From Promethearchaeota archaeon Loki_b32 (GTDB lineage: Archaea > Asgardarchaeota > Lokiarchaeia > Sigyniarchaeales > SOKP01), in contig NJBH01000020.1 in NCBI GenBank assembly GCA_005223125.1, positions 1-64,000 on the forward strand: 64,000 bases of DNA, given 5' to 3'. The notes beneath the pieces were generated by a model, which was not told where the DNA came from, did no database searches, and saw nothing but the letters and a program-made list of their open reading frames with translations. Positions within the stretch are counted from its first letter, which is position 1. Each line of letters begins with the position of its first letter. The position numbers were made by a program, and so were the translations under genes. This document shows positions 5,492 to 52,716 of this stretch, in pieces.

Positions 5492-6721
5492 TTAAAGAGA
5501 GTTAAATTGACCATTTTTATTTAAGATCTTCAAAAAATTAAAATTAGTATTATCAATGATTCTCTTCTTTCTTGATAATCTTGAAAAAGTTTCTCTATTA
5601 AGCCCTGTCTCTACTCTAACCGGATATGAATATAAATCTTTAAATTTCATTACTCCAACAGGGTCCTTTGTTTGAGCAATCATTATGGCAATACAACGTC
5701 TTTTTATATCTTCAGAATCTTTTAAAATGATTTCCATTATTTCAAAATAATTTTCTTGATAATCTATCCATTTGTCTAAAATTGTACTAATCGACTGAAT
5801 TTTATCTTCTAAATTATTAATACCAATAATTCTTCTAGGAAATTTATCTGTTATCCCTATAATAATAAGTCCTCCCTTCTTATTAGCAAATGCTGCTACT
5901 TTCTCACAAAAATCAATCTGTCTTTTCTTCTTTAAAGATTTTGGAGATTGCCATATATCAAGTGTCTCCTTAAAATCCCAATATTTACATTCTGTTTTAT
6001 CTATAATACTGCTAATAAGATCTCTCCAAAATGAATCATGATAAACATTTTCTAACATTTCATCAAAACGGATGACACCCGTAATATTATCTAATGATTC
6101 TAATTCTGTATTCTCAATAAAGATATATTCTTCCAAAATTTCTTGAGTATGATTATTTTTTTTTATAGGAAATCTCAGATCTCCACTTTCGCTAATAAAA
6201 TTATTTTGGATGAGGATTGTCCATACATCTTCTTTTTCATCATTATCAAAATCACCTGGTTTCCACCGATCGATAGCTTTAAAAAAATCTTTTTTCATTC
6301 GAAAATCTTTCGACAATATTAAGTAAATAAATGACATTGCTAATTCTATTCGCATAGATGTCTGAAGATCATTCTCAAAGACATCAACAATTTTATATTC
6401 CAATATTTTATTTTTCTCAAATAACTTAAAAAAATCTCTATATTTATGAAAAAACGAATTATTAATCAAATTATCATTAACTCGAATTCTTCCATAAGGT
6501 TCTTCAATGAGAAGCCCCACTTCACAAAGTTGATTTAAATCTTGCTCTAATTCCTCGCTAAAAGGTCCAAATGACCCACTTCTAAAAATATAATGTAAAT
6601 TCATTATTTTAGCCACCTGAAAGGCATAAATGATTTTCTGTATGTTGATCTTTCCATTAAATCCATCATAGTCTCTGAAGACTTTTAACAGTAAAGCCTG
6701 CCTAATTGTAAGTCTTATCAT
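5492..6721 (-). CDS. Panacea/DUF4065-like N-terminus fused to AlbA_2 (Schlafen-type) domain
   Basis: The product has 409 residues. The first about 110 residues resemble the Panacea/DUF4065-type fold: KINIQKIIYAFQ, then FRSGSFGPFSEELEQDLNQL, then GLLIEEP. Residues about 245-385 are an AlbA_2/Schlafen-like domain. WDFKETLDIWQ carries the acidic pair and FANKKGGLIIIGITD is the typical glycine-rich strand. AlbA_2 domains bind or cleave nucleic acid, and Panacea domains act as neutralising partners of varied toxins. Having both in one chain is notable. It could be a regulator or a self-contained toxin-antitoxin-like protein. The ATG at 6721 directly begins the first domain. Confidence 0.7.
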   Translation of the reverse strand: MIRLTIRQALLLKVFRDYDGFNGKINIQKIIYAFQVAKIMNLHYIFRSGSFGPFSEELEQDLNQLCEVGLLIEEPYGRIRVNDNLINNSFFHKYRDFFKLFEKNKILEYKIVDVFENDLQTSMRIELAMSFIYLILSKDFRMKKDFFKAIDRWKPGDFDNDEKEDVWTILIQNNFISESGDLRFPIKKNNHTQEILEEYIFIENTELESLDNITGVIRFDEMLENVYHDSFWRDLISSIIDKTECKYWDFKETLDIWQSPKSLKKKRQIDFCEKVAAFANKKGGLIIIGITDKFPRRIIGINNLEDKIQSISTILDKWIDYQENYFEIMEIILKDSEDIKRRCIAIMIAQTKDPVGVMKFKDLYSYPVRVETGLNRETFSRLSRKKRIIDNTNFNFLKILNKNGQFNSL

Positions 6722-13895: not shown

Positions 13896-16800
13896 ATGAT
13901 TCATACTTTTACCACTAATTTAGACGGAATTGAGAAAAAGACAGTTAAAAATATGGTTAATGATTTTGCTTCTTCACAATTTTCGACCCTTATGTTTGAA
14001 ATTTCAGAGGGTCTGGCTAGCGGAAATTTACGTCTGAACGATATTGGGAAATTCATTGGCACTCTAGCATCATTTTCCTCAGATCCGGAGTGGGTAATTA
14101 AAATATTTCTTAAAGAGATTTTTAGTAAACGTGATAGGCTGAATCAATTCAGAGATGGAGCTAGTGGTGAATATTTGAAGATGCCGTCGAAATATACATT
14201 TCTATTTTCTGTATCAGATTGGGTTACTCAAAATGCTAAGTTACAGAATTATAATTATAAAGGAACCGCTATAGATTCTGTGGTTAATTATCTGAATTCT
14301 TTAACCGATGCAGAATTTTCAAGCGAAATAAAATCTCTTGCGAACAGATATTATCGTAGTAAATATCTCTTAAATCCAAATTTCTTTAAGAGTCTCAAAG
14401 CTTTGTTTACAGATAGGGACTTTCTTAGATATATAGTTAGAGAAAGTGAGGTTGGTACTGGTTATCAACTTCTATGGCGTGATTCTGTTGGTGCAATGAT
14501 CGAGGCAATGAATAATGGTGAGTCAATCAAATTGTCAAGAAGCATGATTCCTACAACTGTCAGAGGCAATCCAGTATATATTATAGAGGGAGGTATATGG
14601 AAGAGGCTATCAGACTTAAGCAATAGTTATGACTTTGGAGCAGCCCATCTTTATGTATATAGGAAGCTGTCAGACGGATCGAGACAAATAGGAATTGCTA
14701 GAATCGATAATATTGAGAATGATTTGTCGAATATTGTAGATACAAACGGAGAGATTGTTGAATTATATGAAGGGTTCCCCGTATCAGATTCAAGAGTCAT
14801 TAAAGGGGTGTGGTTAAGCAATTCTATGGGAAATCTTTTGATCAGTGAAGTAGCCCTTGACGATTTCTCAATTCGTTCTGATCAAAATAGTAATTGGTTT
14901 GAAGAGTTTATTGAGATTGAGAATGGTGAGTTAAAGAGTAAATTATTCATGAGTTATATAATTGCATCTGGCTCAAAATTGACTTGTTTTTTACAAGATA
15001 CTTCTCTTAAATTCGAAGATTATGAGCCATATAAAAAAATATTTCCAGATTTACCTTTCTCCCAGGAGAGGGGAGTTAAGTTTATAAGAGAAGGCAGGAT
15101 TGTTGTAGATTTAAGTAGAAACACAGAAATTACAGAGCCAAAGGTTAATGCTCTTTATAATATCTTTTTCCAAATAACAGAGACTAGTGTTGGCCGTACA
15201 CATGTAGGAGTTCCTCGCATAATTTTCTCAGAATCGGCTCTAAATTTACATTCATCAGATAAGCGGTATACATTCAAACTTTATGAGAATATCTTGAAGA
15301 ACATTAGACTAAAGGCATCAGGTGCTTTATTTGATTCATCTAGCCCCATTTACAATTCTCAGAATAAACCCCACTATGATTCTGCGGACTCTAATTATTG
15401 GCTTAATATGATAACACGATTCTCTATTTCTGGGGATTCAATATCCTTAACCAAGGTTTCCAAGAAGGAATTCTTTAATGCGTGGTTGCTCCTAATCCAA
15501 AATGAGTTATTAGTAAAGAATGGGCCAAATTGGGAGATAGATCCTAACAGTGCCTTCTATGATCTTAAATATCTGGTCTTCACTAATGGAGATCCGAATC
15601 TCCCTGAGAAGTTTACCGACAACGCAGATTTTCAGGGTGATGAGACAGTTCAAGGATTTCCTAATGATTTTGAAATTGTTGAGAAATTAGAAATAATATT
15701 ACATGATATGTTTGGCTTTACTGGATATGCTTCTTTGTTATTCGGGCTTATGACTTTTTCCCAGACAGAATTTGGAGGGTTTAGAAGTGATTTTGTACTT
15801 CTAAGTAGAGGAGATCAACAAAAATTAAGGCGAGATTTTAATATCTGGACACATGATACCCAATACCTTGTTTCAAAAAAAGAGCGAGGATTATATTATA
15901 TGTCTATTTTCCTTAATGGATTTGAGCATAACTTAGGAGGTACTAAGATTACTTCTAGAGGACCAATCACTGATGTGCTTGCAAACTTAAACCCTGAGCG
16001 CGAAGCGTTTCTATATGAATATTTTGAGGAGTATCATCCAATAGATTCCCTTGATTTCGAAGATGCTACAAATTTCTTTATGGAAGGTTATCAATCTCCG
16101 TCCCAGAATAAGATTGATAGCATGAATTTAATGGGTAGAAAAAAACTTTACAATTACCTCGTTGAGAAATTTGAATTTATAGTTAATTTAATTTTTAGCC
16201 CATCTCATTTGGATGGTGGTGCATTTACTAAATATATTCAAAATCCAGATAATCCAGACAACTGGAAATATAGGACACTGAAACAAGGAAGAAGTTATAT
16301 AAGAATGTCGATTGATAATCCCATAAGCGAGAATAACATTGTTGATGATCTAAGGAAAATTTTGATGTCGGGCAGAAATGGATATATCAGTTTGAATCCT
16401 CCTGAGAGTGGAACCACTACTGCAGTTTCATCTAACACGTTATTACAGCATATGCTTGTACCAATTTCTTATAATGAATTGGTCAAGTATCTTTCCTATG
16501 ACAATTTAGGCACCTCAGCTAATGATGTTATATATACCTTGTTTATGACTTTTGACACCAACTCCCATACCATGCCCTCTGGGTATAACGTTAATCCTAA
16601 AGTGTTTTGGCAGTCGCGAGAGGGTGATGCAATAATAGAGCATGCTGTTGACGTTTACAATGAAATTATAAGTATGTTTAGTGAGGAAGTTCTTGGATCC
16701 TCATACTATGAAAGACAATTCTCAATAAAATTATATTCAGATAAAGGAAGAGGTATATATATGGATTCTATATCTGATAGATTGAAATCATACGGCATGA

Positions 16801-17219
16801 CTGACTCCACTATAGATTTCCATCCGAATGATCAGACCGAGTTAAGGAACGCAATTGCTAGTATGGTATTCTATCTTTATTTTCTCCCAGACGCCTTTGC
16901 CGTTATAAAGGTGCATAATAATAATTTTCTTTTTGCGGACGCTTTTTCCCTTAAGACACCAGAATATGTATCTGATACTGACTATTCTGTGCCTATTGGG
17001 GGAGAATTTATCTGGGATTCGAATCTGGGTGATTTAACGAGAGAAAATTATAATGCCCATATTAATAATTTCAATGGATTTAGCCATCAAGATATCCGAT
17101 CTTTCTTCCAGAGAAGAGATCTTGAGAGTAATTTTGAAGTTCTTTTAGATTTATTTAATAAGTTGTTTAGAACTGAGATTAACCGTGGGATTAATATAAT
17201 GAATTTTTTTGAATTTTAA
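13896..17219 (+). CDS. Very large orphan protein (1107 residues)
   Basis: I do not recognise this protein. It has no signal peptide, no transmembrane helix and no nucleotide-binding motif. The composition is rich in Asn, Ser, Asp and aromatics, and I can find only one cysteine (in LTCFLQD, about residue 364). Codon use is visibly less AT-biased than in the neighbours, which suggests transfer or a structural protein under different selection. Alternating strand-like and helical stretches suggest several globular domains. The ATG at 13896 follows a long non-coding region. Its stop overlaps the stop of the convergent LRR gene by 4 bp. A viral, plasmid or secreted structural role is possible but unproven. 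Confidence 0.7.
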   Translation: MIHTFTTNLDGIEKKTVKNMVNDFASSQFSTLMFEISEGLASGNLRLNDIGKFIGTLASFSSDPEWVIKIFLKEIFSKRDRLNQFRDGASGEYLKMPSKYTFLFSVSDWVTQNAKLQNYNYKGTAIDSVVNYLNSLTDAEFSSEIKSLANRYYRSKYLLNPNFFKSLKALFTDRDFLRYIVRESEVGTGYQLLWRDSVGAMIEAMNNGESIKLSRSMIPTTVRGNPVYIIEGGIWKRLSDLSNSYDFGAAHLYVYRKLSDGSRQIGIARIDNIENDLSNIVDTNGEIVELYEGFPVSDSRVIKGVWLSNSMGNLLISEVALDDFSIRSDQNSNWFEEFIEIENGELKSKLFMSYIIASGSKLTCFLQDTSLKFEDYEPYKKIFPDLPFSQERGVKFIREGRIVVDLSRNTEITEPKVNALYNIFFQITETSVGRTHVGVPRIIFSESALNLHSSDKRYTFKLYENILKNIRLKASGALFDSSSPIYNSQNKPHYDSADSNYWLNMITRFSISGDSISLTKVSKKEFFNAWLLLIQNELLVKNGPNWEIDPNSAFYDLKYLVFTNGDPNLPEKFTDNADFQGDETVQGFPNDFEIVEKLEIILHDMFGFTGYASLLFGLMTFSQTEFGGFRSDFVLLSRGDQQKLRRDFNIWTHDTQYLVSKKERGLYYMSIFLNGFEHNLGGTKITSRGPITDVLANLNPEREAFLYEYFEEYHPIDSLDFEDATNFFMEGYQSPSQNKIDSMNLMGRKKLYNYLVEKFEFIVNLIFSPSHLDGGAFTKYIQNPDNPDNWKYRTLKQGRSYIRMSIDNPISENNIVDDLRKILMSGRNGYISLNPPESGTTTAVSSNTLLQHMLVPISYNELVKYLSYDNLGTSANDVIYTLFMTFDTNSHTMPSGYNVNPKVFWQSREGDAIIEHAVDVYNEIISMFSEEVLGSSYYERQFSIKLYSDKGRGIYMDSISDRLKSYGMTDSTIDFHPNDQTELRNAIASMVFYLYFLPDAFAVIKVHNNNFLFADAFSLKTPEYVSDTDYSVPIGGEFIWDSNLGDLTRENYNAHINNFNGFSHQDIRSFFQRRDLESNFEVLLDLFNKLFRTEINRGINIMNFFEF

Positions 17220-18515: not shown

Positions 18516-18628
18516 AGATTTTAGCAATCATATATAGTTTTTTGACAATCGCCCCAAATGATAAGAGTAATAAGCTAAGTTTAAAAGAAACTAGAGATCT
18601 TAGCAATCGTATATAGTTTTTTAACAAG
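18516..18628. repeat. Imperfect direct repeat of the GTPase gene 3' end
   Basis: About 33 bp at 18596-18628, which encode the C-terminal helix LVKKLYTIAKI of the GTPase gene, are repeated almost exactly at 18516-18548, outside the gene. Read in frame on the minus strand, the outer copy gives SFGAIVKKLYMIAKI and a stop. It looks like the tail of a second GTPase copy left after tandem duplication and deletion. Confidence 0.65.
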
Positions 18629-19153
18629 AATTTTAAAGGCTTCCGTGACTCCATGGCCTGTCAATGCACTCGTTTTATAATACCCAACGAATCTATTTTC
18701 TTTTGCTAATTGCTCCACATTAGCGTCAGCAGTCGGTAAGCCTGGATTAGACACTAAAGTTGCCTCATCAACTAAATCCACTTTATTTCCAAATAAAACT
18801 AGTGGTATATTTCCACAATGTTTTTTAAGATCATCAAGCCATCTGGGAACATGCTCATAGGATTGTGGTTGTTCGGGATCGTGAGAGAAAACGATAATTG
18901 CTCCACTGCTTCCTATATAAAACCTTTGTCGTAATGCTTGAAATTGATCTTGCCCTGCAATATCCCAAAGAAACAGTTCAACTTTCTCTCCATCAATTTC
19001 TTCTTCATACTTAGAAAATTGAGTTCCTAGGGTTGATATATACTCCTTTTGAAAGGATCCTTGTGTATATTTTTTAATTAGGGATGTTTTTCCTACTGCG
19101 CCATCACCGATCACAGTGATCTTAAACCCGTATCCTTTTTCATCATCACTCAT
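18581..19153 (-). CDS. Rab/Ras-like small GTPase
   Basis: The product has 190 residues from the ATG at 19153; an upstream TTG at 19165 is less likely because the paralogue also begins MS(D)E. All G motifs are present: GDGAVGKTS (P-loop), a switch I Thr in STLGTQF, WDIAGQDQF with the catalytic Gln, GNKVDL, and TSALTG. The overall pattern is Rab/Ras family. The C-terminus ends KISSFF with no cysteine, so no prenylation is expected. It lies 193 bp downstream of a paralogue on the same strand, and upstream of the LRR gene, a plausible partner. Such GTPases are abundant in Asgard genomes and are thought to act in membrane or cytoskeletal regulation. Confidence 0.93.
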   Translation of the reverse strand: MSDDEKGYGFKITVIGDGAVGKTSLIKKYTQGSFQKEYISTLGTQFSKYEEEIDGEKVELFLWDIAGQDQFQALRQRFYIGSSGAIIVFSHDPEQPQSYEHVPRWLDDLKKHCGNIPLVLFGNKVDLVDEATLVSNPGLPTADANVEQLAKENRFVGYYKTSALTGHGVTEAFKILVKKLYTIAKISSFF

Positions 19154-19346
19154 TTTGGTTATCAATCCATCTAAGTCTAATTTCCTTTTTTATATAATAA
19201 AAATCAGATGTTTTAAATTTTTACAAAAGAATATCTCATTAAAAGTCTATAAATCAAATCGAATATCTAAAATTAAAAGAGTTATATTATCTCAATATTT
19301 TAAAAAAAATTAAAAAAGTCCTTTGAATCGGGATAAAGAACGAGAC

Positions 19347-19901
19347 TCATATAGTGGCTCGTTGATATAGCTTATCAACAAGTTTTTTAAAAGCAATAGA
19401 GACACCTTGACCTGTTAAAGCACTTGTTTTAAAATACTCCATAATATTATGATCTTGAGCGAATTTCTTAACATGAACATCTGAAGTTTCATAATTTGGA
19501 CTAGTAGCTATTGCATTTTGATCAACTAAATCAGCTTTATTTCCAAATAATATTACGGGAATATTCCCACAAACTTCTTTTATATTTGATCGCCATATAT
19601 CGATATGACGATATGTTTCAATTTCTTCAGGAGCAAGAGAAAAAACTATAATAGCACCGCTACTTCCCTTATAAAATCTATCACGTAGGGTACTGAATGA
19701 TTCTTGGCCAGCTAAATCCCATAAGAATAATTCAACCAACTCTCCATTTAAATCTTCTTCATATTTCGAAAATTGCATGCCTAAAGTAGAAATATAATCC
19801 TTTTCAAATGAATTGGTTGTATATCTTTTAATTAGCGATGTTTTTCCGACCGCGGCATCACCAACTACCGTTATTTTAAAGCCGTAAGCCTTTTCACTCA
19901 T
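19347..19901 (-). CDS. Rab/Ras-like small GTPase (paralogue)
   Basis: The product has 184 residues. Motifs are GDAAVGKTS, STLGMQFSKYEED (switch I), WDLAGQESF, GNKADL and TSALTGQG. It is close in sequence to the neighbour at 18581 throughout, so the pair arose by tandem duplication. There is no C-terminal cysteine (ends QRATI), so membrane attachment, if any, is through partners. It is probably an independent transcript, since the gap to the paralogue is AT-rich and about 190 bp. No GAP or GEF gene is recognisable nearby. Confidence 0.93.
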   Translation of the reverse strand: MSEKAYGFKITVVGDAAVGKTSLIKRYTTNSFEKDYISTLGMQFSKYEEDLNGELVELFLWDLAGQESFSTLRDRFYKGSSGAIIVFSLAPEEIETYRHIDIWRSNIKEVCGNIPVILFGNKADLVDQNAIATSPNYETSDVHVKKFAQDHNIMEYFKTSALTGQGVSIAFKKLVDKLYQRATI

Positions 19902-32527: not shown

Positions 32528-33187
32528 TTAATTAAAAATCTCATCCAGTTCTTCAATTAAACTCTTTTTTGTGAGTTCAAATCCTGCTCTGAGAACTTTT
32601 AAAATTATGTTTTTCCCGAGGGGAACTTTTAAGATAGAATCGTCTTGTTCTACAATAGCAATTCCTTCTTCATTATAATCTAGTTGACGTTTTAAGGCTT
32701 GAAACGCTCTTTCTTTTGATTTAAATGCAGCTCTAGACAACTCGTAATAATCTTTAACATCCTCTTTTATATTTAAAAATAGGATACTCTCTTCTACTTG
32801 TGTTACAAAACATTTTTTTGTAACTTCTATTAATTTTTTGTGGTTCTGATGGTTTTTTCGGCATTGAATATCAGTTTGGTCATTCTCTAAATAGATGGGA
32901 AAATTCTTATTTATAACCATTTCAATCTGTTCTTTAGAAGAAACACCGTTTTTCACTAACTCTTTAGCAGAATCAAGAGTAACCTTAATTTGTTCTAATG
33001 TACCTTTCAGTGCATCATTATCTGACCAATATTTATAAAAAGATTTGACAATAGGCTTTATGACAAAATTAAGAGCACCGACATCTAACTCCGAATCAAT
33101 TAATTCTTTTCCATAGTTAAGCGATGTTTCCGTTTGCTCGATCATCCTTCTTTCTAAAATTCGATAGTTTCTCTCGATAAAGTCCAT
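32528..33187 (-). CDS. Tandem paralogue, helical protein of unknown function (copy B)
   Basis: The product has 219 residues, is soluble and helical. It aligns along its whole length with the upstream neighbour at 33308. Shared blocks are LNFVIKPIVKSFYKYW, TLEQIKVTLDSAKEL and VPLGKNIILKVLRAGFELTKK. Conserved Lys/Asp/Asn and no metal-binding motif are visible. The middle contains IQCRKNHQNHKK, rich in basic residues. No family is recognised; probably lineage-specific. It has its own 120-bp upstream gap. Confidence 0.7.
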   Translation of the reverse strand: MDFIERNYRILERRMIEQTETSLNYGKELIDSELDVGALNFVIKPIVKSFYKYWSDNDALKGTLEQIKVTLDSAKELVKNGVSSKEQIEMVINKNFPIYLENDQTDIQCRKNHQNHKKLIEVTKKCFVTQVEESILFLNIKEDVKDYYELSRAAFKSKERAFQALKRQLDYNEEGIAIVEQDDSILKVPLGKNIILKVLRAGFELTKKSLIEELDEIFN

Positions 33188-33307: not shown

Positions 33308-33970
33308 TTATTTTTGGTTGTATGTATCATTAAGTCCTTCAATGAATTCTTTTTTAGTTAACTCATAACCCCGTCTTAGTGCTTTGACAATAATTTTCCG
33401 ACCTACGGGGACTTTAATAATGTAAGGGTCTTCTTCTACAATTTTTATACCCTTTTCTGTAAATTCTAATTGCCTCATTAAGTTCTCTTCCGCTACTTCC
33501 TTTGAGTTAAATGCGACTCGACATAAATCTCCATAATCTCCTACATCTTCTTCTACTTCTAATAGTTTTACTACTTCTTCTAAATAACTTGTGAATGTTT
33601 CTTTAGCATTCTGTTTAAATCTATCAAAATTTTTATGCCTATTGTTGCCCATCCGAAAAGTTTGGTCATTTTTAAAATATCTAGGAAAATTTTCTTCAAT
33701 TATTTTCTCAAAACTCTGCTCTGTCTTGCCATTAAGTACCAGATGCTTACCAGAATCTAACGTAATTTGAATTTGTTTTAAAGTTCCGTACTTGGCATCA
33801 TTTTTTGCCCAATGATCGTAGAAGCTTTTCACGATCGGATTAATTATGAAATTTAAAAAACCAGTATCTAACACCGTATCAATTAGTTTTCGCCCTAATA
33901 CTATGGAATTTTCCATCTGTTGAATCATTCTTTCTTTTATAAGTTGATAGTTTCTTTCTAAGTAATCCAA
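33308..33970 (-). CDS. Tandem paralogue, helical protein of unknown function (copy A)
   Basis: The product has 220 residues and is a full-length paralogue of the gene at 32528, at roughly 40-45 percent identity by eye. It shares the opening MDYLERNYQLIKERMI pattern and the closing VPVGRKIIVKALRRGYELTKK pattern. The two copies have diverged most in the basic middle segment, which suggests distinct partners. It is divergent from the large TPR gene, with about 195 bp between them. Confidence 0.7.
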   Translation of the reverse strand: MDYLERNYQLIKERMIQQMENSIVLGRKLIDTVLDTGFLNFIINPIVKSFYDHWAKNDAKYGTLKQIQITLDSGKHLVLNGKTEQSFEKIIEENFPRYFKNDQTFRMGNNRHKNFDRFKQNAKETFTSYLEEVVKLLEVEEDVGDYGDLCRVAFNSKEVAEENLMRQLEFTEKGIKIVEEDPYIIKVPVGRKIIVKALRRGYELTKKEFIEGLNDTYNQK

Positions 33971-34165: not shown

Positions 34166-37100
34166 ATGTCAACATTTTACTTCAGGACTTTAATTCTTGG
34201 AGCAGACCCAAATACAATTCATTTTTATATCTCAAGAGCTTTTGGCGAAGCGGGGGAAGATCATGAAACATATTTTAAATGGTATAAAGAAACCAAAGTC
34301 TTAGATGATATTTGTGATTTAGAAATTGATGCAATTACAAGTATTTCTGCTGATTTGGATGAAATAATCCCAATGGTGGATGGAATTATTTATTTTTTAA
34401 ATCCTACAATCCAAGAAGAATCTGAATTGTTTGAGATGATACTTCCAGACATTTTTTCAGTAAAACGTGATATTCCTACAATTATTATATTTTATGATCA
34501 AAATGGAATCCTTCCCCTCTCCATAAATGACTTATTAACACACATATGGGTAAATTTTCCTAGTTTAGAGGCTTTTGCTAATCTCCCTCCTAAGGATTTT
34601 CATCAAGCACTCCAATCTTTATGTTTAGCAATGATTAATGGCGATACACCATTAAATATTGAAAATGCATGGATGAGATTTCCAATATTTATCCAAATGG
34701 CAAATATCTATTTTAATAATAAAAATTATTATTATGCTGCCCAAGCGATTAGAAAAACCGCCTTGATTGCAGATATTTATAATAAAGAAGAATTTTTCAT
34801 AATCAGTGAACAAGCAGCATACCTTTATTCTAAAATTAATTTGTATTTAGAAGCGAGTAAAATTTTAGAGAAGGTAGATAGAAAGAAATCAATCAATTTT
34901 AAAAAATTGTATGCAGATGCAATAATAAGAGAGGGTAACCTGTTTTTTAACAAGAATGAATATGAACGAGCAGCGAGAAACTATGAAAGAGTAGCTCAAT
35001 GGTCAAGTATAGAATTATTAGAAAGAACGTTTATTCATGAAGCATTTCGTTTAGCAATAAATTCGTGGATTTCTGCCTGTAGAGTAGAAGACGCTTTTAG
35101 AATTCTTCAAAGTCTACATCATAAAGGAGTAATAGTGCTATTGAAGGAATTTTCAGATAAAATTGGAGCAGCTGCAGATTATTTAGTAAGTATTAATAGT
35201 TTTGAATTAGCCAAAGAACAATTATATAGAGCAGTGAATAGATATCAAAGAGAAGATCTCTTTGAAGAATTAAAAGACTTAACCAGTAAATTGGTTGATG
35301 TTCTAATTATACTTTTTAAACAACAAATAAATGACCAAAAAAACCATGCTGCAAAAAATACTTTTGACGAAATTGAAAATTTATGGGATTCTTATAAAGT
35401 AAAAAAAATAAACTTGGATTCAACTCTAGAAGAACTTATTGACCACTTTTTTGAAGCTAATAATTTTAGAATGGCAACCATTTTAATAGACAAATTGAAC
35501 TCACGAAAATTAAAACAACAAATTTCTAAAATTAGAGATGAACTTGAAGACAAATATAATGCCTTGAAAAAGAAAGAAGTAGAAGATTATATTAATAAGG
35601 GAATTGACATTTTAAGAGATTTTTTCGTTGCCGAAATCGATATCATTGCTGAGATAAATACTCAAGAAATCAACAAAGCGAATGAGTTAGCAAAACAGAA
35701 TAAATATCTAAAAGCAGCAAAACTCTTAAAAAATCAAGCAGATTACCTTAAAAGGATTGGAAAAGAAGATATAAAAGACCAAATTCTTACAAAGTCTTTA
35801 GATATATTATTAAATGGCTTGGAATTTGAAAATTTCTTTTTATTTTTCAATGAACTCTCGTTTGATATGAAAACTAAATACTTAACGAGAATTTTTCCAA
35901 AATATTTTCAGAATTTACAAGAATTAAGAAAATCAGAGGATTTTAAAAGAAATGAAAAGATATTTGAAAGTTCAAACAGAATTTATCGGAATCAAATGCT
36001 TTATGATCAATCCAAAGAAATTACACTGATTTTCATAAAAGTGATTAAACAGGAAGCGTTAAGAATTTTAGAAATTGAAGAAAATCTTTCGGGGATATCT
36101 AAGGCAACAATATTAGAAAAAAATGCGTTAAATATAAAATCAGCATATTTGGATAAGGAAGAAAATATTAAAATTAAATATAATAAAATTTATAAAAAAA
36201 TCGCTGAAATTTATATTGAGTTGGATGATTTACATTTAGCACATATTTATAATGATAAAATTGAAAAAGCTGGTTATAAAATTGAAATACATAAGAAAAT
36301 AGAGAAACTCGAAGCTGAAAAAAGTAAAATAAGATCAGAAAAAGCTAAAGAAACACGAGATGGAGAGGTCTTAAGAGAACAGCGCTCTATAATGGAAAAT
36401 AAAGCAAGAGAAGCAAAACTAGATAGAAAAAATGAATTAAGAGAAAGAAAAGGATTAAGAAGAGCATACTTTGAAAATGGTTTAATTCATTTGAAAAACC
36501 AAGAGTTTGACCAAGCGCTTAAATTATATAAGGAAACAACCAACCGATTAAACAGAATAAAAAAATACAATATTGCCGGTGTGTCTTTAGCAGTGGCAAG
36601 TTTAATATTAATGAAAGAGGAAAAATTTAAAGAAATTAAACAGTTATTATTAGAAACAAAAAAACCGTTATCAGGTATGGCAAAATTATTCTCAGAAACA
36701 TTTGCTGTTACTTTATTAGAATATATTATTGGTTTAAAAAATATTCAAGATGATCTAAATTTCAGACTGGCATTACCCTTTTTCGAAGTACTCCCCCTAT
36801 TTGAAGAAGAATTAATATTGTTATATGAAATTAAAGGCGAAGAATATCAAAAGGAAGAAAAGCCTGAAAAAACTTTAGAGATGTACGCAAAACAAAGAGA
36901 TGTTGAGAGACACATTAAGAAATTGGCGGAATCTATTGAAAAAGAACTGCACCATGTAAAAAAGAGAGAAGCAATTCAAAATCAATATTGGAGGCTTATA
37001 TTGGATGATATATCTAAGGGAAAAATGACAAACGCATCAATAAGTTATCTTGAAACAGTTCCTAAGCTCATTAAAGAAGGTTATACTAGACTTGCAGCAG

Positions 37101-37903
37101 TTAGCCTTATTTTAGGTTCAATAATTCTCTTAAATGAAAAAGATCTCAAAATTGCTAAAGAAACATTTGAGAAACATGTAGAAGAAAATAAATCTGATTT
37201 AGAATCTCTTCCAGAAATTCAAATTATGAAATATTTTTTCCCTGCAGTTAGAAAGGATGAAAAATCAGTAGTTAAATTAATAATCAATTCACTTGTAGAA
37301 AAGTTAGTATTATTTGAACCAGAAATTAAGTCGTTAAAAATAATCTTAGGGGAAGAAGTCTCAGAAGAAGAAGAAATTAGAGAAATGCTATCTCGAGAAG
37401 AATATGGAAAATTATCTAAATTAAGAGTAGAATATGATCAAATATATGGTAAACTCCAAGCTAAAGTAGTAGATGCTAAAAGAGATAAAGAACGTATTTT
37501 AAAAAGAAGGACTCCCATGAAAAGAAGATACTATTTGCCCATATTAGAATTGTTAGAAATCAAAAATTTTAAAAATGCAGGAGAAAAATATTTAGAATTA
37601 GCATTTACTCTTACTAGAAGGAACGATCTTGAAACTAGCTCTTTAATGATGCTCTTACATGGTTTAACTTTTTTAAAGTCAGGAGAACCTTTAAAATCAA
37701 TTAAGAATAATCTAAATAATTATTTAAATAGTTTAGGAGTTAATAAAAAATTAGTTGAGGAAACATTTTATATTATGTTAATCTTGTTTCTGATTGAAGT
37801 AAAAATATATAATTTTGATAAATATTTACACAAAATTAAGGAAATGCTAGAAATACTTCCACTATTTGAAGAAGAGAGAGTACTAATCGAAATTGAAGAA
37901 TAA
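34166..37903 (+). CDS. Giant TPR-like protein with degenerate GTPase-like N-terminus
   Basis: The product has 1245 residues. The first about 130 residues follow a Ras-like strand/helix order (FYFRTLILGADPN, then MVDGIIYFLNP, then DIPTIIIFYDQNG). However, there is no P-loop Lys-Ser and no NKxD, so it is probably a non-binding pseudo-GTPase. Residues about 170-420 and 760-1220 contain TPR or alpha-SNAP-like helical pairs (ANIYFNNKNYYYAAQAIRK, FFNKNEYERAARNYERVAQW). A long charged coil separates them. It probably scaffolds protein complexes, perhaps in membrane traffic or GTPase signalling, which fits the Asgard setting. TFB is convergent on the far side. Confidence 0.75.
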   Translation: MSTFYFRTLILGADPNTIHFYISRAFGEAGEDHETYFKWYKETKVLDDICDLEIDAITSISADLDEIIPMVDGIIYFLNPTIQEESELFEMILPDIFSVKRDIPTIIIFYDQNGILPLSINDLLTHIWVNFPSLEAFANLPPKDFHQALQSLCLAMINGDTPLNIENAWMRFPIFIQMANIYFNNKNYYYAAQAIRKTALIADIYNKEEFFIISEQAAYLYSKINLYLEASKILEKVDRKKSINFKKLYADAIIREGNLFFNKNEYERAARNYERVAQWSSIELLERTFIHEAFRLAINSWISACRVEDAFRILQSLHHKGVIVLLKEFSDKIGAAADYLVSINSFELAKEQLYRAVNRYQREDLFEELKDLTSKLVDVLIILFKQQINDQKNHAAKNTFDEIENLWDSYKVKKINLDSTLEELIDHFFEANNFRMATILIDKLNSRKLKQQISKIRDELEDKYNALKKKEVEDYINKGIDILRDFFVAEIDIIAEINTQEINKANELAKQNKYLKAAKLLKNQADYLKRIGKEDIKDQILTKSLDILLNGLEFENFFLFFNELSFDMKTKYLTRIFPKYFQNLQELRKSEDFKRNEKIFESSNRIYRNQMLYDQSKEITLIFIKVIKQEALRILEIEENLSGISKATILEKNALNIKSAYLDKEENIKIKYNKIYKKIAEIYIELDDLHLAHIYNDKIEKAGYKIEIHKKIEKLEAEKSKIRSEKAKETRDGEVLREQRSIMENKAREAKLDRKNELRERKGLRRAYFENGLIHLKNQEFDQALKLYKETTNRLNRIKKYNIAGVSLAVASLILMKEEKFKEIKQLLLETKKPLSGMAKLFSETFAVTLLEYIIGLKNIQDDLNFRLALPFFEVLPLFEEELILLYEIKGEEYQKEEKPEKTLEMYAKQRDVERHIKKLAESIEKELHHVKKREAIQNQYWRLILDDISKGKMTNASISYLETVPKLIKEGYTRLAAVSLILGSIILLNEKDLKIAKETFEKHVEENKSDLESLPEIQIMKYFFPAVRKDEKSVVKLIINSLVEKLVLFEPEIKSLKIILGEEVSEEEEIREMLSREEYGKLSKLRVEYDQIYGKLQAKVVDAKRDKERILKRRTPMKRRYYLPILELLEIKNFKNAGEKYLELAFTLTRRNDLETSSLMMLLHGLTFLKSGEPLKSIKNNLNNYLNSLGVNKKLVEETFYIMLILFLIEVKIYNFDKYLHKIKEMLEILPLFEEERVLIEIEE

Positions 37904-39140: not shown

Positions 39141-40376
39141 ATGTCTTCAGATACTTCTAGTTTTATTAAAGTCTTTACAAAATTTTTGGATCCAGATTCT
39201 ACAAAAATAGATAAATTACATAAAATAGATGATGTTTTAAAATTACCTGTTCACTCATATAAATTTATTGACAAAGAAGAAGCAACAATAATGAAGCAAC
39301 TTTTAGAAGTTTCAAATATTCGAGATGCTTCCAAGTTAAATAAAGAAAATCCTTTTGAAACTCTAACTGAAATTGAAGAAACTGATGAATCTATCGAATT
39401 AGCAGTAAAACTACAAAAAAAACTTGAGGAACTCAAAGCAAAATACCCAAATTTAGAAAAGAAACTAAAGAAAACGATTACAATTAGCTCACTTATAGCG
39501 AGTGTAAAAGAAGAAAAAGAGGGTTTTGAAGCAGAAGCGCAGAAGGTTTTGGTAGCGGGCCTTGATTATGCAGGAAAAACGGCAATACTATCGAAATTTG
39601 GGGGACGGTTGGGAATAAGCGATATGATTTCGACACATCCAACTAAAGGTGTTGTTCGAATGAAATTTGGCAGTAAGAAATTAAGCTTATTTATTTGGGA
39701 TTTAGGTGGTCAGAAAGAATATAGGCAAAGATACTTAAATAACCCAGAACAATATTTCATTCAACTTGATTTGCTAATTTATGTAATTGATGTACAAGAT
39801 CCAGAAAGATTTGATGAATCTCTCGATTACTTTGAGAAAATTGTCGATTCATTAATTTTTTTAGAAGAGTCGCCCTTTATATTAATTTTTATTCACAAAT
39901 ATGATCCTGACTTGAAAAATGACCCTAAAATTCTCTTAAATATTGAGCTTTTAAAGGATAGTTTTAATGAACTATTAAAAAGTAAGAATTATGATTTTAA
40001 AATTGAAACTTATCTAACATCAATATACTCATTGATTTCACGAGAGCCACAATTCGCAAAATATATAAAGAATCTCATGAATACCAGTTATTCTCTTTCT
40101 GATCCAACCGTAAGAAAAGTTGAAGGACTCGGCAAAACATTAGAAGAAACTCTTAATGCTGTTATTCGTTTATCTGAAAGTCTTTCTACACAACTCAACG
40201 AAATTGATAATCGTCTTAGGGCTATAGAGTCAGGAGCATTCCAAGTAGCCCAAAGTGGAATTCCCATTGAAATTGCAAATCCAAATCAACCTGGTGCTAG
40301 ACCTGAGAATGCAAGATTAAATGTCCTCAATGAGTTAAAAGATTTATTCAGTAAGAAGAGAAGATTAGATCTTTAA
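39141..40376 (+). CDS. Arf/Rag-like GTPase with extra N- and C-terminal domains
   Basis: The product has 411 residues. The GTPase core is at about 130-310: VLVAGLDYAGKTAILSKF (P-loop of Arf type), WDLGGQKEYRQRY (G3 with Gln), and FIHKYDPDL in place of NKxD, where Rag/Gtr GTPases also have HKxD. The N-terminal about 125 residues are helical. The C-terminus has a coiled coil (TLEETLNAVIRLSESLSTQL) and a Pro-rich tail. In eukaryotes Rag GTPases work with roadblock proteins; two roadblock genes occur elsewhere in this window. The ATG follows a 305-bp AT-rich upstream region shared with divergent tfb, in which only the mini-ORF is seen. Confidence 0.88.
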   Translation: MSSDTSSFIKVFTKFLDPDSTKIDKLHKIDDVLKLPVHSYKFIDKEEATIMKQLLEVSNIRDASKLNKENPFETLTEIEETDESIELAVKLQKKLEELKAKYPNLEKKLKKTITISSLIASVKEEKEGFEAEAQKVLVAGLDYAGKTAILSKFGGRLGISDMISTHPTKGVVRMKFGSKKLSLFIWDLGGQKEYRQRYLNNPEQYFIQLDLLIYVIDVQDPERFDESLDYFEKIVDSLIFLEESPFILIFIHKYDPDLKNDPKILLNIELLKDSFNELLKSKNYDFKIETYLTSIYSLISREPQFAKYIKNLMNTSYSLSDPTVRKVEGLGKTLEETLNAVIRLSESLSTQLNEIDNRLRAIESGAFQVAQSGIPIEIANPNQPGARPENARLNVLNELKDLFSKKRRLDL

Positions 40377-52182: not shown

Positions 52183-52716
52183 ATGGCTGACGCGATGTTT
52201 AAGATTGTGTTTTTCGGGGATGGAGGTGTCGGTAAAACAACTTTAATAACCCGGTTTCTGACTGGTGTCTTTAAGAGCGATTCAGTTATAACAATCGGGG
52301 TAGACTTTCATGTAAAAAAAGTTGATATTGATGGGAAACGAGTTAGTTTACAAATCTGGGATTTTGCTGGTGAGGATAGGTTTAGATTTCTTATGCCTAG
52401 TTATGTAGTTGGAGCCTCTGGAGGAATCTTTATGTTTGATATAACAAGATATACAAGTCTTAAAAATTTTAATGATTGGATTGAAATTTTTAAAACAGGT
52501 TATAAAACTGTTAACCACCAAATGCCTGTTCTTATGGTAGGGAGCAAACTAGACCTTGAGTATAAAAGAGCCGTTTCTAGAGAAGATGCGCTTGAATTGG
52601 CTAAAAAAAATAATCTTTTCGGGTACATCGAATGTTCTGCTAAAGATGGGCAAAATGTAGAAGAAATTTTTGAAGAAATTGCCCGATTAATGATGATGAA
52701 AGCAGGATTACTGTAA
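52183..52716 (+). CDS. Rab-like small GTPase with altered switch II
   Basis: The product has 177 residues. P-loop GDGGVGKTTLITRF and switch I TIGVDFHVKK are normal. G3 is WDFAGEDRFRF, where the catalytic Gln of AGQ is Glu. G4 is VGSKLDL instead of NKxD, and G5 is CSAKDG. There is no C-terminal cysteine. The Gln-to-Glu change suggests slow hydrolysis or need for a GAP. Preceded by AGGGG about 8 nt before the ATG. It is separate in sequence from the pair at 18-20 kb. Confidence 0.92.
   Translation: MADAMFKIVFFGDGGVGKTTLITRFLTGVFKSDSVITIGVDFHVKKVDIDGKRVSLQIWDFAGEDRFRFLMPSYVVGASGGIFMFDITRYTSLKNFNDWIEIFKTGYKTVNHQMPVLMVGSKLDLEYKRAVSREDALELAKKNNLFGYIECSAKDGQNVEEIFEEIARLMMMKAGLL

Follow-up and report, generated by a model that had tools for sequence, protein, structure and literature searches.

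The window, by which we mean the whole 64,000-nucleotide stretch of DNA analysed here, carries an open reading frame with an ATG start that runs from 34166 to 37903 on the forward strand and encodes a protein of 1245 amino acids. An earlier sequence-only reading had placed a pseudo-GTPase head on a 1245-residue protein at this locus; its coordinates match the open reading frame exactly, and homology of the head to small GTPases proved well supported. The gene is present as a single copy in the window's genome, and comprises the following features.

34166..37903, + strand: whole gene, pseudoGTPase-TPR protein of 1245 aa (ATG start; open reading frame and orthologs)
34166..34645, + strand: putative Ras-like pseudoGTPase head, residues 1-160 (profile searches, profile-profile comparison, joint alignment)
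34199..34216, + strand: site of the lost P-loop, residues 12-17 (57 of 58 members gapped at GK[S/T])
34490..34504, + strand: site of the lost NKxD motif, residues 109-113, FYDQN (motif scan, joint alignment)
34646..34690, + strand: head-solenoid junction, residues 161-175, strongly conserved (P162, A168, W169 and R171 nearly invariant)
34661..35605, + strand: first TPR-like solenoid block, residues 166-480 (weak Pfam TPR, self-comparison, model and Foldseek)
35606..36385, + strand: second solenoid block, residues 481-740, a diverged repeat of about 250-480 at an offset of about 250 (profile self-comparison)
36266..36427, + strand: highly charged stretch, residues 701-754, probably the 'coil' of the sequence-only reading (charge count)
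36428..36835, + strand: C-terminal module 1, residues 755-890, ending in LPLFEEE and a short helix tail (self-comparison)
36938..37351, + strand: C-terminal module 2, residues 925-1062, missing in the short form of the protein (self-comparison)
37487..37891, + strand: C-terminal module 3, residues 1108-1242, with LPLFEEE again (self-comparison)

Of the phylum's 227 genomes, 71 yielded relatives in a search with the single sequence and 73 in one with a family profile. Within the order of the window's genome, 71 of 79 genomes matched the family profile, including two with fragments only (G120 and G085). G120, a single-contig genome of the same genus that is 81% complete, retains only a short gene remnant with a stop (G120:C1:1562115-1562543). 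Outside the order, two marginal whole-profile matches were found (G081 and G175), each a single short stretch, and the one in G081 sits in a TPR-type protein in which no GTPase-like head was seen. Apart from these two matches, the family is restricted to one order. Its members occur in two length forms: the long one has about 1245 aa, and in the short one, of about 1060-1090 aa, residues 904-1062 or thereabouts are missing. The family set used for the counts below holds 58 proteins and does not include 13 of the 71 matching genomes of the order; L009 (the window itself again), L010 (on the same contig as L012) and L057 (in which a stop splits the gene) were left out.

A profile built from 45 heads was searched against 21 genomes. 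Behind 18 matches to the family itself came 44 others at E<=1, 41 of which were GTPase-like as judged by the P-loop or by eye, and all 12 non-self matches at E<=0.001 were small GTPases or GTPase-like proteins. Of the 44, 35 carried GxxxxGK[S/T]; the rest, inspected by eye, comprised five that resemble Ras but have an impaired P-loop, a GTPase truncated where its contig ends, and three non-GTPases (L132, L136 and L141). The best non-self match (E 1.7e-7) was a protein of 203 aa encoded in the same genome as the window, with a Pfam Ras score of 118.7 bits, and within the window the sole other matches above noise were two Ras proteins, at 18581-19165 and 19347-19901. A further GTPase of the window lies at 52183-52716. 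Compared profile to profile with 11 Ras proteins that had been picked without reference to the head (the genome's eight top Pfam matches and three from the window), the head reached a probability of 92.5% over 108 columns; one earlier hhalign test had used GTPases found with the head profile itself and was biased. Accepted GTPase groups scored 97-98% against each other in the same comparison, which makes the head a distant member. Reversed profiles gave 2.0 and 1.7%, 20 column shuffles at most 0.8%, and 10 non-GTPase neighbour families at most 0.6%; the neighbouring Rag/Arf-like GTPase family scored only 0.5% against the head. The profile-profile alignment stops at strand 5, strand 6 and helix 5 coming only from a joint alignment in which 58 heads were combined with 85 GTPases. 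In that alignment the heads open like their GTPase relatives, with YxFKIxxLGD, and the IPxxL strand is common to both. Pfam Ras (PF00071) gave no match to the window protein in hmmscan at E<=1. Among solved structures the head profile found no significant relative by sequence (septin Cdc10, E 0.056; IFT22/Rab-like 5, E 1.8), and a profile of the whole protein found weak ribosomal-protein matches only. A tree placed all 11 heads included apart from 45 GTPases, on long branches; it gave no GTPase subfamily of origin, and L103, the best match, was not placed among the heads. By these profile comparisons, the homology of residues 1-160 to Ras-family small GTPases is well supported.

In three dimensions the head would be expected to adopt a G-domain fold. 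The structural check proposed in the sequence-only reading gave a model of low confidence: the AlphaFold model of the head had a pLDDT of 51.2, with only two sequences in its alignment, and Foldseek placed a Ral complex and a CPLANE-RSG1 complex first, but only at E 0.25, with GTPases mixed with DsbA and dehydroquinase among the matches. We treat fold searches with this model and with that of the solenoid (pLDDT 49.5) as weak evidence only. The low sequence identity, the poor model and its mixed Foldseek matches would suit a head with a different Rossmann-like fold, such as that of a response-regulator receiver, and no more than a resemblance to Ras. However, 16 receivers (PF00072) of the same genome (16 of 17 loci; L158, which has a stop, was left out) scored 0.4% profile to profile against 92.5% for Ras, the top non-self sequence matches are GTPases, and the YxFKIxxLGD start and IPxxL strand are those of GTPases. 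We rejected the receiver on this comparison, and consider an unrelated Rossmann-like fold exceedingly improbable; the response-regulator-like N-terminus that the sequence-only reading had named as telling against it was not found.

The same reading had described the head as lacking the P-loop and NKxD, and this holds across the family. In the joint alignment, 57 of the 58 heads have gaps where the G, K and T/S of the P-loop GK[S/T] would stand, and neither GxxxxGK[S/T] (G1) nor NKxD is present in any of the 58. The G3, G4 and G5 positions are replaced: the DxxG aspartate column mostly holds A or V, with DxxG occurring close to the site of switch II in two of 58 members; Y, D and N/D, in that order, predominate at NKxD, and a gap, N and L at SAK. 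We took the definitions of a pseudoGTPase and of class (i) from the part of PMC5593906 drawn on here, with PMC10211241, likewise in part, as a further source for class (i) and its examples. On these definitions the head qualifies as a pseudoGTPase by its homology to small GTPases in sequence profiles and by the absence of at least one G motif, G1 being gone in 58 of 58. Because the P-loop, switch, NKxD and SAK elements have been lost, the head is most likely unable to bind GTP, and nucleotide binding is predicted to be absent. Pseudoenzymes with migrated residues do exist, according to the part of PMC10211241 used here, and offer a precedent for a head that still binds nucleotide through an unusual site and switches. 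This seems to us very unlikely given the deletion of the GK[S/T] columns and the replaced DxxG, NKxD and SAK positions; moreover, no new invariant K, S or T was seen in the head.

Selection on the head was assessed in 12 close pairs. Its dN/dS ranged from 0.02 to 0.41, compared with 0.13-0.36 for the rest of the protein, and was below 1 in 12 of 12 pairs; in 11 of them, all but L041/L044, it was also lower than in the remainder of the protein. The head is thus under stronger purifying selection than the rest, which rules out a decaying relic. Among its most conserved residues are D72, G73, I74 and P104, where GTPases have core residues too; P80, R101 and W128, nearly invariant, are specific to the family. 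The main rival to a docking role is that the head, although a pseudoGTPase, is purely structural, a cap closing off the first TPR helices, with no outside partner and no part in GTPase signalling. Conservation of core positions is what such a cap would show, the junction with the solenoid is among the best conserved stretches, and a Rag/Arf-like GTPase neighbour is lost outside one family (see below). A cap more constrained than the solenoid it would cover, in 11 of 12 pairs, and bearing nearly invariant family-specific residues is harder to reconcile with this explanation, which we judge unlikely.

The body of the protein appears to be a TPR-like solenoid, followed by two or three copies of a module of about 135 residues. 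Pfam matched the window protein to TPR_2 (E 2.4e-4, 21.4 bits) under the curated cut-off of 27; among eight other members, two had sub-threshold TPR_2 matches and one had a match to ANAPC5 just above the cut-off of that model. The model of the first solenoid block, of low confidence, is all helix, and its best Foldseek matches are TPR proteins (designed CTPR, LGN, alpha-SNAP), alpha-SNAP chains being only some among many. Since no SNAP family was among the hmmscan matches of the full-length protein at E<=1, the 'alpha-SNAP/TPR-like repeats' of the sequence-only reading are retained as helical and TPR-like but not as members of the alpha-SNAP family. The coil that it placed between the repeats probably corresponds to highly charged stretches (residues 701-770, 876-945 and 1051-1120, with 43-54% charged residues). 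In profile self-comparison, residues ~250-480 recur at ~500-730 (94.9 and 96.4% for two segment pairs), and the three C-terminal modules match each other at 98.7-99.7%. The short form lacks one of the three, and none was found outside this protein family in the 21 genomes searched.

We also analysed the gene neighbourhood, counting only loci with enough flanking sequence. In the family designated f1, a divergent gene for a 220-aa helical protein and a DUF2085 membrane gene lie upstream in 26 of 26 loci, and downstream there is a convergent TFIIB gene (21 of 21) and, within 2 kb, a Rag/Arf-like GTPase gene (20 of 21), which in the window is the second gene downstream (39141-40376). In f3 a 220-aa gene and the DUF2085 gene are kept upstream in 4 of 4 loci, but more distantly, and the TFIIB and GTPase genes are absent in 5 of 5; both are also absent in f4 (2 of 2), so that the GTPase is found near the gene in 20 of 21 f1 loci as opposed to 0 of 7 elsewhere. 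Three adjacent copies of the GTPase gene follow the pseudoGTPase gene at L074 (G108). A member of the 220-aa family is kept upstream in f1, f2 and f3; the window has two as tandem paralogs that are 50% identical (32528-33187 and 33308-33970, - strand), and these divergent neighbours matched no Pfam family above cut-off. Elsewhere in the window, a 1107-aa protein (13896-17219, + strand) was matched by neither Pfam nor NCBIfam at the thresholds applied, and a 409-aa protein (5492-6721, - strand) had a weak DarG-like match (E 6.7e-7), far under the family cut-off.

Proximity in f1 and the three copies in G108 would be expected if the protein were the constant partner of this Rag/Arf-like GTPase in a pseudoGTPase-GTPase pair. 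However, the GTPase is kept in none of the f3 or f4 loci, and the intervening TFIIB gene is equally conserved and in the opposite orientation, so that the proximity may reflect inherited gene order, as may much of the neighbourhood. We regard a constant pairing as improbable, and the neighbourhood as a lead rather than proof of a functional link to GTPases. The scaffold with a dead GTPase domain put forward in the sequence-only reading fits the TPR-like body; that the gene regulates Asgard GTPases, as it also suggested, is conceivable, the Rag/Arf-like neighbour in f1 being the sole hint.

We think it probable that the gene encodes a lokiarchaeal scaffold in which a Ras-descended, nucleotide-free class (i) pseudoGTPase head serves as a docking module on a TPR-like solenoid. 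The N-terminal domain would derive from a Ras-family small GTPase that lost its P-loop, switch, NKxD and SAK elements; no longer binding GTP, it would be held in one fixed conformation and kept as a protein-docking module, rigidly attached to the solenoid through the conserved junction. Additional partners would attach to the solenoid and to the repeated C-terminal modules, and in this way the protein would bring the components of a complex together, as eukaryotic class (i) pseudoGTPases do. A more specific arrangement, in which the dead head and an active small GTPase form a pair through their G domains, with the neighbouring Rag/Arf-like protein as the candidate, we consider doubtful. Lokiarchaea have dozens of small GTPases, and little is known of the proteins that read or organise them; a conserved, selected scaffold with a pseudoGTPase head, encoded by almost all genomes of the order, is a tangible and expressible candidate. 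If it binds GTPases or their regulators, the use of dead G domains as docking modules, known in eukaryotes, would extend to Asgard archaea, and if the head does pair in this way with an active GTPase, control of GTPases by pseudoGTPases would be older than eukaryotes.

The literature searched, which covered few subscription papers, yielded no account of this protein or domain combination. TPR solenoid proteins such as LGN, designed CTPR and alpha-SNAP share the helical hairpin repeats of the low-confidence solenoid model; the body of the Loki protein differs from them in its sub-cut-off Pfam TPR match, its internal duplication of ~250 residues and the lack of a SNAP match. The nearest sequence relatives of the head are the Asgard Rab-like small GTPases described in the part of PMC10933270 drawn on here, with a homologous G domain; that text mentions roadblock and longin fusions and contains neither TPR nor 'pseudo'. 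The window's genome has 85 Ras-family matches in 4.13 Mb, and the P-loop that the head lacks is present in 70 of the 72 examined, the other two being without the motif. Damaged P-loops were seen in other Loki Ras-family proteins (L103/L217 at G000:C6:7023-7565, L227, L107, L120, L121 and L130), of which L227 (G000:C37:183987-184373) lies inside an 896-aa open frame. The class (i) pseudoGTPases covered by the part of PMC5593906 used here, among them p190RhoGAP pG1/pG2, CENP-M and the fungal dynein light intermediate chain, are eukaryotic, and none is described there as having a TPR-like solenoid with such C-terminal modules. For p190RhoGAP pG1 the loss of nucleotide binding is a measurement (PMC5593906, same part), whereas for the Loki head it is predicted from motif loss. 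In both, a Ras-like domain whose G motifs have degenerated forms part of a larger protein or complex, and the scaffolding or docking role that those sources give to class (i) is the one we propose for the Loki head, which suggests that the archaeal relatives of eukaryotes, too, have put GTPase domains to new use as binding modules.
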